This document shows positions 1,697 to 41,626 of a stretch of DNA of 64,000 nt, piece after piece (within the stretch, counting starts at the first letter, position 1; each line of letters opens with the position of its first letter). The stretch is from Georgenia sp. SYP-B2076. GTDB taxonomy: Bacteria > Actinomycetota > Actinomycetes > Actinomycetales > Actinomycetaceae. The position numbers and the translations under genes are program-made. The stretch covers positions 124,001 through 188,000 of the forward strand of contig NZ_RXOZ01000033.1 of NCBI RefSeq assembly GCF_003991205.1, given 5' to 3'. The notes under the pieces are model-generated. The model did not search any database and was not told the origin of the DNA. It worked only from the letters and a program-made list of their open reading frames with translations.

Positions 1697-3142
1697 CTAC
1701 CGGACGGGCCTCCCACGGCCGTCGTCGCCCTGGGCCCGGCCGGGCGCGGCCGTCCCCTCCTGGGCGGCGACGGCGCCCGCGTCGCCGGCCGGCACGGGCT
1801 GCGACTCCTCCTCGGCGGCGCGCCGGCCGGTCGTGACGGCGGCGGCCTGCTGGGCCTCGTCGAAGACCGAGGGGGCGCCGCCACCGGCGACGTCGCCCTC
1901 CTGCTCCCGGCCGGGCGTGCGCAGGTTCCATCTCTTGATCGCGAAGCTGAAGATGAGGTAGTAGACCACCGCGTACCCGAGCCCGATGACGATCAGCCAC
2001 AGCGGCCGGGTGGCGATCCCGAAGTTCAGCACGTAGTCGATCGCGCCCGCGGAGAAGGTGAACCCGTGGTGGATGTCCAGGGCGTTGACGAGCGCCAGCG
2101 AGGTACCGGTGAGCACGGCGTGCACCGCGTACAGCGGGAACGCCACGTACGCGAAGGCGTACTCGAGCGGCTCGGTGATGCCCGTGAGGAACGCGGTGAG
2201 GGCGACGGAGACCATGATCCCGCCGGTGACCTTGCGCCGCTCCGGCCGGGCGTTGCGCCAGATGGCCAGGGCCGCGGCGGGCAGCGCGAACATCATGATG
2301 GGGAAGAACCCGGTCATGAAGGTGCCGGCGGCCGGGTCGCCCGCCAGGAAGCGGGCGATGTCGCCCTGGACCACCGCGCCGGTGTCGGGGTTGGTGAACT
2401 GGCCGAACTGGAACCACGGCAGGCTGTTGAGGAGGTGGTGAAGCCCGAAGGGGATGAGCAGCCGGTTGACCGTGCCGAAGACGAAGCCGCCGATCACGGA
2501 GTTGCCCGGGTGGGTCACCCACTCACCGAACCCGCCGATGACGAAGTTGAAGGCCGGGTAGACGAGCGCGAACAGCACGGCGACGACGACCGAGACCAGC
2601 GCCGTGATGATCGGGACCAGCCGGCGCCCGCCGAAGAACGCCAGGTAGGGCGGCAGCTTCGTGCGGTAGAACCGCTGCCACAGGAGCGCGGCGATGATGC
2701 CGATCGTGATGCCGCCAAGCACGCCGTAGTTGATGGTGGGCGTGCCGTCGGGGCCGGGCGCGCCGAACGTCGGGGCGAGCGCGTCCAGGACCGCCTTGAA
2801 GGTGAGGTAGCCGATGAGCGCGGCGAGGGCCGTGGAGCCGTCCGACTTGCGGGCGAAGCCGATCGCGACACCGATGGCGAAGATGATCGGCAGGTTCCCG
2901 ATGATGGCGGTGCCGGCGGCCGCGAGGACGTCCGCGACGGGCTGCATCCAGCCCATGCCGGCCCAGCTCGACACCCCCTTCGCCCCCAGCATGTCGGGCT
3001 GCCCGAACCGGAGCATGAGCCCCGCGGCGGGCAGGGTGGCGATCGGCAGCATGAGCGAGCGACCTACCCGCTGGGCCTGCGCGAAGCCGGGGATGTGCCG
3101 CTTCTGTCTGGCGGCCGTGACACCTGCGGCGGTGGCGGTCAT
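1697..3142 (-). CDS. PTS sugar permease, EIIC component (glucose/N-acetylglucosamine family)
   Basis: This is the membrane channel of a phosphotransferase system that imports and phosphorylates a glucose-type sugar. The protein has 481 residues with about ten hydrophobic segments and the GITEP substrate-site motif at about residue 321, typical of the Glc/GlcNAc EIIC family. There is no EIIB or EIIA domain in the chain: both are separate genes transcribed divergently at 3497 and 3724. I chose the ATG at 3142 because the upstream extension of the frame is Arg/Pro-rich shadow sequence and a strong promoter lies at 3251-3279. The C-terminal 60 residues are hydrophilic and low in complexity. Glucose and N-acetylglucosamine specificity cannot be separated from sequence alone. 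Confidence 0.9.
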   Translation of the reverse strand: MTATAAGVTAARQKRHIPGFAQAQRVGRSLMLPIATLPAAGLMLRFGQPDMLGAKGVSSWAGMGWMQPVADVLAAAGTAIIGNLPIIFAIGVAIGFARKSDGSTALAALIGYLTFKAVLDALAPTFGAPGPDGTPTINYGVLGGITIGIIAALLWQRFYRTKLPPYLAFFGGRRLVPIITALVSVVVAVLFALVYPAFNFVIGGFGEWVTHPGNSVIGGFVFGTVNRLLIPFGLHHLLNSLPWFQFGQFTNPDTGAVVQGDIARFLAGDPAAGTFMTGFFPIMMFALPAAALAIWRNARPERRKVTGGIMVSVALTAFLTGITEPLEYAFAYVAFPLYAVHAVLTGTSLALVNALDIHHGFTFSAGAIDYVLNFGIATRPLWLIVIGLGYAVVYYLIFSFAIKRWNLRTPGREQEGDVAGGGAPSVFDEAQQAAAVTTGRRAAEEESQPVPAGDAGAVAAQEGTAAPGRAQGDDGRGRPVR

Positions 3143-34733: not shown

Positions 34734-35284
34734 GTGGCCCTGTCGCCCCCCGCGCCTTCGCGCCGGTGAGCGCCCTCCTGCCGTGCCGGTCTATCCCGTT
34801 GGCTCAATCCACGGAGGGTCGGGACCTTTCCGCAGCGCCGACGGCCACGCGGTTCTGGTGGCGGACGCGCGGAGCCCTCGGGGTGGGCGTGGTCGCCATG
34901 GTTGCCGTGGCCTTGCCCCACACGCGAGGCACGGCGCCGCGCCACCCGGTCGGCGAGGTAGAACCTCTCCGGCGAGCCAGCACATCTCGGCCTTCTATCT
35001 CGCCGCAGTTGTTCTACCTCGGACGGTCTCCCCTCAGAAGGGGGGACCTGGCCGCGGATCTCACGCCGGTTCCCGGTGGTCCCAGGCGGTGCGACGAACA
35101 GGCGGGCGGTCCTCGGCGGTCTCCCGCCCGCCGAAGCGGGCCCCGGGGAAGGCGTCCGAGGAGATGACCGGTCGCCGCGGCAGGGGGCGAGCGCCTGGAC
35201 AGGGCGCGCCCCTCCGCCAGTCCCTGTTAGTAGATGACCGCTCGCCGGCAGAAAGCGCTCGCCGGCATGGGGGAGGCGCGCCGA
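34734..35284. other. Gap between chorismate mutase and the acyl-CoA ligase gene
   Basis: This 551-base gap between convergent genes holds no supported gene. It contains the diverged copy of a dispersed palindromic repeat (34954-35021) and, near 35240-35275, two close copies of GCTCGCCGGCA. The rest is featureless GC-rich sequence. Confidence 0.5.
34954..35021. repeat. Diverged copy of the GAGGTAGAAC palindromic repeat
   Basis: CGAGGTAGAAC (34954-34964) and its complement at 35011-35021 end a 68-base element. The right arm (34993-35021) matches the right arm of the element at 40026-40054 at 26 of 29 bases; the left arm has lost pairing in the middle. It lies between two convergent genes. Confidence 0.8.
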
Positions 35285-39886: not shown

Positions 39887-39974
39887 GGTGGGAGATTCTT
39901 TCACGTCGGCGGCAGTGGGCGCCGTCACGGTCCGCGGACGCCGGCGGGCCGGCTCGCCGGCGGCCGCCACGGAG

Positions 39975-40066
39975 GTAGAACAAGGACGAGGTAGAACAGT
40001 TGCGGCGAGGTAGAACGCTCAAACCTTCTACCTCGCCGCAACTGTTCTACCTCGCCGCTGTTCTAC
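39975..40066. repeat. Long perfect palindrome of the GAGGTAGAAC repeat family
   Basis: Twenty-nine-base arms (39987-40015 and 40026-40054) are perfect reverse complements around a 10-base loop. Each arm holds two copies of CGAGGTAGAA separated by CAGTTGCGG. An outer pair, GTAGAACA (39975-39982) and TGTTCTAC (40059-40066), extends the symmetry. A diverged copy lies at 34954-35021. No terminal duplication or open frame is present, so it resembles a REP/MITE-like element or a very large terminator. Confidence 0.88.
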
Positions 40067-40109
40067 ATCGCCGCGCGGGTGACGATCGGCCGCGCGGGCA
40101 GTCGCGCGC

Positions 40110-40336
40110 TCAGGCCATCCGGTCCACGAGCATCCCGGCGAAGGTGCCCAGGGCGTCCTTGATCTTCCCGGCCGGCACGGGCTCGAGCTCGGCGACTGCG
40201 ACGGCGGCCCAGGTCCCGGCGACCTCGCGGGCCTGCGCGACCGACGTCGTGGTTGCGCAGGCCGGTGACGACGGGGCGCAGGGTGTCGTTGGAGTGGAGC
40301 GCGGCGCCGAGCCGGCCCAGCACGGCGGCGCCGTCA
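40110..40336 (-). pseudogene. Frameshifted C-terminal remnant, resembling a polyprenyl synthetase tail
   Basis: On the minus strand one frame reads AAVLGRLGAALHSNDTLRPV then VTGLRN (to about 40250), and the next frame continues AQAREVAGTWAAVAVAELEP, PAGKIKDALGTFAGML and VDRMA to the stop at 40110. Joined by a one-base shift they make about 75 residues with the rhythm of a trans-polyprenyl synthetase C-terminus (A..WA..AV..L..LP.G..K.AL..FA..VVDR). No DDxxD domain precedes it: the iminopeptidase gene overlaps its 5' end. High GC3 in both pieces supports recent coding. The family match is from memory; that it is a broken gene tail is better supported than which gene. Confidence 0.5.
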
Positions 40337-41626
40337 GCGTCGCGCGATGGTGATCAGCCTGTCGAGGATGTGCTCGCCGTCGGTGCGGATGCCGTCGTGC
40401 TGGTAGTCGTTGGTGATCCACGGGCGCAGGCCCTTGATCGCGCGGGCGGTGGCGAGGGACAGCTCCAGGGGCACGAACATGTCGTCGACGTAGATCGCCG
40501 CCGCCACCGGCACGGTGTTCGCGGCGAGCACCTTCGGGTCGTACAGCGCGGGGAAGTCCTCCTTGGCGGCGAGGAGGTCGGCGGCGTCGGCCAGCGGCCG
40601 CAGCGCCGGGTCCTCGCGCAGCTGCCACGGGTAGATGTGCTCGCCCGTGAGGTAGTACGGGGTGGCCGGCCAGGCCGGGTCGGCGTCCTCGGCCATCGAG
40701 GCGAACTCCCCGCGCACGCGCTCCGCCGCCCAGTGCGTGGCCGACCCCTGCGCGTAGATGGCCTCGTGCAGGACGGCGTAGAGCGGGTTGCCCGCGTAGC
40801 TGACCAGGGCGCCGACGTCGGCCAGGAATGACCGGGTCAGCCGCCGGGCGCCGCCGACGCTGACGAAGGGCTCCTCGAGGACGTAGTGCAGCGCGTCGAA
40901 GCCGAGGTCCGCGCCGAGCCGGATCCCGATCTGCCGCAGCCGGCGGGCGGAGAGCCGCTCGCCCGTGGGGAGCAGCTCCTCCGTGCCGGCCAGGTGCTGG
41001 GCGACCTCCCGCAGGCGCGCCTGGTCGTCCGGGTAGCGGGCGAAGTACTGGTGGTTGCGCCGGGCCGTCTTGGCGTAGGTGAGGCGGTAGACCTCCTCGG
41101 CGGTCGCCGTCAGGCCGGGGAGCCCGGCGACGACGAACGCCTCCCGCAGGCCCTCCGGGGCGCGCGAGAGGTACGCCGTGATGACGAACCCACCGAAGGA
41201 CTGCCCGAGCACCGACCAGGGCCGGCCGCCGGCGAGCTCGCGGCGCAGCGCCTCGGCGTCCGCGACGATGGCATCCGCCCGGAAGTGCGCGAGGTAGTCC
41301 GCCTGCGCGGCCGCGTCGCCGCGGGCCGTGACGGTCACGGCGTCCGCCGGGCTCGAGTGCCCGGTGCCGCGCTGGTCGAGGAGGACCACCCGGTAGTCCT
41401 CCAGGGCCCGGTCGACCCAGCCGGTGATGCGCGCCGGCCGGTCCCCGCGGCTGCCGGGGCCGCCCTGGAACCAGACCAGATGGGGGCGCTCGGCGCCGCC
41501 GTCGCGCACGATCTCCCGCGCGAAGAGCTGGATGGTCTCGCCGGCCGGGGCGGCGGGGTCCAGCGGGACCGCCAGGCGGTGCTCGTAGACGTCGTGCCCG
41601 TCGATCCGGTAGCGGGAGGTGTCCAT
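40334..41626 (-). CDS. Prolyl iminopeptidase-like alpha/beta hydrolase (S33 family)
   Basis: This enzyme would release N-terminal proline from peptides. The 430-residue protein has the oxyanion segment FQGGPGSRGDRP, the nucleophile in VLGQSFGGF, an Asp in VDDMFVPLE and a late His in NDYQHDGIRTDGEHIL. DQRGTGHSS is the family's conserved loop. No signal peptide is visible, so it is cytosolic. ATG 41626 is the start; the frame continues far upstream without coding character. The stop overlaps the remnant at 40110-40336 on the same strand. Confidence 0.92.
   Translation of the reverse strand: MDTSRYRIDGHDVYEHRLAVPLDPAAPAGETIQLFAREIVRDGGAERPHLVWFQGGPGSRGDRPARITGWVDRALEDYRVVLLDQRGTGHSSPADAVTVTARGDAAAQADYLAHFRADAIVADAEALRRELAGGRPWSVLGQSFGGFVITAYLSRAPEGLREAFVVAGLPGLTATAEEVYRLTYAKTARRNHQYFARYPDDQARLREVAQHLAGTEELLPTGERLSARRLRQIGIRLGADLGFDALHYVLEEPFVSVGGARRLTRSFLADVGALVSYAGNPLYAVLHEAIYAQGSATHWAAERVRGEFASMAEDADPAWPATPYYLTGEHIYPWQLREDPALRPLADAADLLAAKEDFPALYDPKVLAANTVPVAAAIYVDDMFVPLELSLATARAIKGLRPWITNDYQHDGIRTDGEHILDRLITIARR

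Follow-up and report, generated by a model that had tools for sequence, protein, structure and literature searches.

What is the long perfect palindrome that lies in an intergenic region of Georgenia sp. SYP-B2076, and why does a diverged copy of it lie 5 kb away? The whole stretch of DNA that was analysed, a 64-kb window of contig NZ_RXOZ01000033.1 (positions 124,001 to 188,000), was originally predicted to include a palindrome with perfect 29-base arms, a second copy keeping 26 of 29 bases of one arm, and possibly a REP- or MITE-like family or an RNA hairpin with a function. In order to examine this, we first reanalysed the palindrome itself. The two arms are complementary in 29/29 positions and are separated by a 10-nt loop, and the right arm of the second copy keeps 26/29 of the right arm of the first. 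Four CGAGGTAGAAC-type motifs form two 19-bp-spaced pairs that face each other. Motif matches in the window (up to two mismatches) number 40 against 11 expected, and none of 100 shuffles reached 40. The palindrome is the best inverted repeat in the window, and the 116-nt region that includes it folds at z = -13 to -14 against dinucleotide shuffles. Chance was thus rejected. Matches to Rfam families were all below the gathering score and were mostly to miRNA models (among them mir-6, let-7 and MIR9776), look-alikes that are explained by the long perfect stem and by GAGGTAG.

In order to find further copies, we searched the genome by BLAST with the 116-bp region and with a covariance model built from the aligned copies. 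Exactly six copies were found, each 68 bp long: two in the window (designated W40 and W35), two on contig 37 (C37), one on contig 12 and one on contig 8. The six score 74-95 bits, and the next match scores 16.6 bits against 73.9 for the weakest copy. The copies lie on four different contigs with unrelated flanks, which argues against an assembly artefact, although this was judged without read mapping. None was found in eight congeneric genomes, and a motif-pair pattern had no hit in 98 relatives, congeners included. An exact arm pattern found nothing in viral contigs or in about 85,000 species genomes (a set from which records very near the window's own may be left out), and a looser pattern gave 52 genome and 5 viral hits, none of them palindromic. 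A search of the literature for the short sequence retrieved no relevant paper. The prediction of a REP- or MITE-like family is therefore supported, as the copies are six, dispersed, intergenic and private to this species among nine congeneric genomes.

Table 1 Features of the palindromes in the 64-kb window and of related sites elsewhere.
Feature	Position	Strand	Remarks
W40, 68-bp palindromic element, solo copy 1	39987-40054	-	29-bp perfect arms, 10-nt loop; orientation from the family's GGTTTGA loop; 94.6 bits
Left arm of W40	39987-40015		
Right arm of W40	40026-40054		
Motif unit, outer left	39987-39997	+	CGAGGTAGAAC
Motif unit, inner left	40006-40016	+	CGAGGTAGAAC; 19 bp from outer
Motif unit, inner right	40025-40035	-	CGAGGTAGAAG; one mismatch
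Motif unit, outer right	40044-40054	-	CGAGGTAGAAC
Extra outer unit, outside the 68-bp element	39971-39981	+	GGAGGTAGAAC; one mismatch; 16-bp spacing
Extra outer unit, outside the 68-bp element	40060-40070	-	CGATGTAGAAC; one mismatch
Region scoring against microRNA models	39985-40056		below gathering scores
W35, 68-bp palindromic element, diverged solo copy 2	34954-35021	+	between convergent chorismate mutase and acyl-CoA ligase genes; 75.6 bits
Insertion containing W40	39949-40332		~384 bp, between valS and the alpha/beta-hydrolase gene; absent from 8 congeners (in congener G005, 39948 joins 40333)
3'-terminal fragment of a polyprenyl synthetase gene	40110-40341	-	between the hydrolase gene and the hairpin
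Intergenic interval containing W35	34735-35284		several hundred bp longer than in congeners
Different palindrome at the W35 site, congener G002	L218:~2078-2146		CGGCCGCTACAGGACACGGCGAGCGCCACAGG...; 68 bp
Different palindrome at the W35 site, congener G004	L217		
Apparently frameshifted relative of the C37 gene	C23:226845-227700 (L147, L152)		same genome as the window
Remnant at the site of a G085 solo palindrome	L249 (G101:C1:2800150-2800700)		CGAGATCGATCTCG

Interestingly, the two C37 copies flank a gene. They lie about 141 bp upstream of the start and about 42 bp downstream of the stop of a 366-aa open reading frame that matches the AbiEi models of PADLOC, as do all 22 members of an alignment of its homologues. 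The C-terminal part is probably a Vsr/REase-type domain. Several members match REase_MTES_1575, a family described as a Vsr-type REase (PMC3710099), and DUF559, but below the curated cut-offs (MTES_1575 20.9 vs 38.2 bits; DUF559 18.7 vs 20.6). Residues E215, D246 and E269-x-D-G-x-x-K275 are invariant in the 22 proteins, although which of these are catalytic is inferred. The nuclease assignment is therefore likely but not proven. No solved relatives were found, and no homologue was found in phages or plasmids. A second, apparently frameshifted relative of this gene (59-64% identical) is present in the same genome without CGAGGTAGAAC palindromes, and is a likely relic.

Comparison with the congeners revealed empty sites. 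In six congeners the polyprenyl synthetase gene directly abuts the EamA transporter gene, so the ~1.56-1.59-kb stretch of palindrome, gene and palindrome on contig 37 is an insertion in this genome. The insertion that includes W40 also holds the 3' end of the polyprenyl synthetase gene, copied together with the hairpin from a C37-like locus (81% over 365 bp with the hairpin), and the homology ends exactly at the hairpin's outer base, 39987. No relic of the AbiEi-like gene was found inside the W35 insert. Both window copies sit in insertions larger than 68 bp, so exact movement of the palindrome alone was not seen in this genome. Interestingly, at the same chorismate mutase/acyl-CoA ligase site as W35, congeners G002 and G004 carry a different palindrome, also with a 19-bp internal period, indicating either a hot spot or replacement of the motif in place. 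It is very unlikely that the palindromes are ordinary transcription terminators or mRNA-stabilising hairpins that happen to share sequence. W35 does lie between convergent genes and the RNA fold is very stable, but the copies have no U tract, share sequence with a precise ~68-bp boundary and a four-motif 19-bp architecture, are absent from congeners at orthologous sites, and in one case (contig 8) lie between divergent genes.

We next asked whether the pairing of gene and palindrome recurs. Homologues of the gene were found in 85 of 396 Actinomycetales genomes and 31 of 110 genera, in a search that drew on the window's order. In 43 loci, 36 of 86 flanks of 450 bp hold a strong hairpin (score ≥14) against 0 of 129 background windows of the same loci, and upstream and downstream flanks share repeats in 27 of 43 loci against 0 of 86. 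About a third of the homologues in this set show no clear shared flanking repeat. In a second set of 20 loci, 18 had a palindrome and 13 had one on both sides, with a background of 5 of 40; most of these came from genomes already known to hold palindromes and are not a random sample. General tiles gave 21 of 1236, three of which are this family's own copies. The motif sequence differs from gene to gene, but the two motif copies within an arm are 19 or 20 bp apart in 25 of 26 hairpins with a detectable internal repeat, where about 0.07 were expected.

The palindrome families tested in other genomes are also dispersed. A query of 17 different palindromes against 20 genomes found them mainly in the genomes that hold the gene, with 75 matches in genome G010, 71 in G212 and 40 in G085; both strands were counted, so copies are roughly half as many, up to roughly 35-40 per genome, and these counts are approximate because few candidates per genome were scored. 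None of the 17, which are foreign to G000, matched that genome. In genome G001 the palindrome also has solo copies and is absent from the other eight genomes of the genus. G085 has two such families, each next to its own gene copy, and its aligned copies keep similarity over about 68-69 bp and lose it outside. Orthologous sites are filled in some species and empty in others.

Across 39 loci, palindrome similarity follows protein identity (Mantel r 0.63, none of 2000 permutations as high) and not the genome, and paralogues inside one genome have unrelated palindromes. Orthologous genes at the same site were not separated from genes that moved, so part of this correlation is plain common descent. 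In 13 copies from G085 and a further genome, G101, the motif columns are nearly fixed while spacer columns change on both sides together (10 cells against 3.8 shuffled, 0 of 500). Two constraints are visible, motif sequence and base pairing. Covariation within the six window-family copies alone, which are too few to show this, is not significant.

These data bear on two further explanations. The palindromes could be operators of an AbiEi-like transcription regulator without nuclease activity, which autoregulates its gene and a regulon marked by the solo copies. AbiEi represses its own promoter through 11-bp inverted repeats (PMC3985639), one palindrome usually lies 60-210 bp upstream of the start codon, and the motif bases are fixed. 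However, we consider this unlikely, as a second copy lies just after the stop codon, solo copies often sit after stop codons or between convergent genes rather than at promoters, spacers covary as paired bases, which operators do not need, copy numbers approach 40 with site turnover between species, and catalytic-type residues are invariant. Alternatively, an unrelated enzyme (a RAYT/IS200-type or other transposase) may move the palindromes, the AbiEi-like gene being cargo or a defence gene captured between two copies. Dispersed hairpins are typical substrates of IS200/IS605-type enzymes (PMC2817692). This too seems improbable, although the genome was not searched for a RAYT or other transposase, since palindrome sequence tracks this protein across species, no transposase domain was found among the homologues, no other gene was found in the cassette, and the association recurs across many genera.

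The explanation that we favor, with moderate confidence and without biochemical evidence, is that the two window hairpins are solo, non-autonomous copies of a palindrome that is recognised, and probably mobilised, by the AbiEi-like protein. In this model, the winged-helix region reads the 10-11-bp motif, present four times per palindrome with a 19-20-bp period, and the probable Vsr/DUF559/MTES_1575-type nuclease domain cuts at or beside the palindrome, perhaps in cruciform or single-stranded hairpin form. Repair or copying then places the palindrome, alone or with neighbouring DNA as in W40, at new intergenic sites. Palindrome-gene-palindrome would be the autonomous unit. Binding, cleavage and mobilisation are inferred. 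It is about as likely as not that this represents a previously undescribed class of prokaryotic mobile element, in which an AbiEi-type winged-helix/Vsr-type nuclease rather than a transposase spreads a four-motif 68-bp palindrome, with or without its own gene, through actinobacterial genomes, each gene lineage carrying its own diversified palindrome. We found no description of this pairing in the open-access papers searched. Dispersed palindromes are common in bacteria, but the only enzymes tied to them in the papers read here are tyrosine transposases. The pairing would add a new kind of enzyme-repeat pair, suggest a function for a gene family that matches AbiEi antitoxin and DUF559 models in Actinomycetales, and offer dozens of natural protein-motif pairs for learning how a small winged-helix nuclease changes specificity.

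The closest known systems were compared in turn. REP elements with RAYT genes (REPtrons) also include a gene flanked by palindromes, the same palindromes dispersed between genes, lineage-specific sequences, and co-evolution of palindrome and protein (PMC2817692, PMC3733652), a functional parallel and not homology. However, their palindromes are 20-40 bp long with a GTAG (or GTGG) tag at the foot of the hairpin, while the elements found here begin with CGAGGTAGAAC or, in other genomes, with CGAGATCGAC, GGTCGTACC and so on, and in the window family GTAG falls inside the stem. A Pfam scan of 22 homologues found AbiEi, MTES_1575 and DUF559 but no Y1 transposase (PF01797), and Actinobacteria are not among the phyla listed for GTAG repeats in PMC3733652. 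MITEs and Rickettsia palindromic elements are likewise short non-autonomous palindromic repeats, but no transposase-bearing relative was found here, and the only gene found between the flanking copies is the AbiEi-like one. No target-site duplication could be read in empty-site alignments, which were too diverged at the junctions. The AbiE type IV toxin-antitoxin system shares the AbiEi-related N-terminal region, but the C37 gene has an extra nuclease-like C-terminal domain and palindromes on both sides that are dispersed genome-wide, and its neighbours are the polyprenyl synthetase and EamA genes, with no adjacent AbiEii nucleotidyltransferase. The MTES_1575 example named in PMC3710099 is a domain of a large conflict protein, and no flanking palindromes are mentioned there. 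By these criteria the pairing is not a member of any of these families. A defence or RNP system, in which the flanking palindromes act as RNA or decoy DNA for the nuclease and dispersal is a by-product, is suggested by the AbiEi kinship and by perfect stems that could be transcribed, but it is doubtful given that no AbiEii or other partner gene lies next to the C37 gene and that no phage or plasmid homologues were found, and it hardly explains dispersal.

Interestingly, at the site of one G085 solo palindrome, G101 has only a short remnant, CGAGATCGATCTCG, as if the inside of the hairpin had been deleted.
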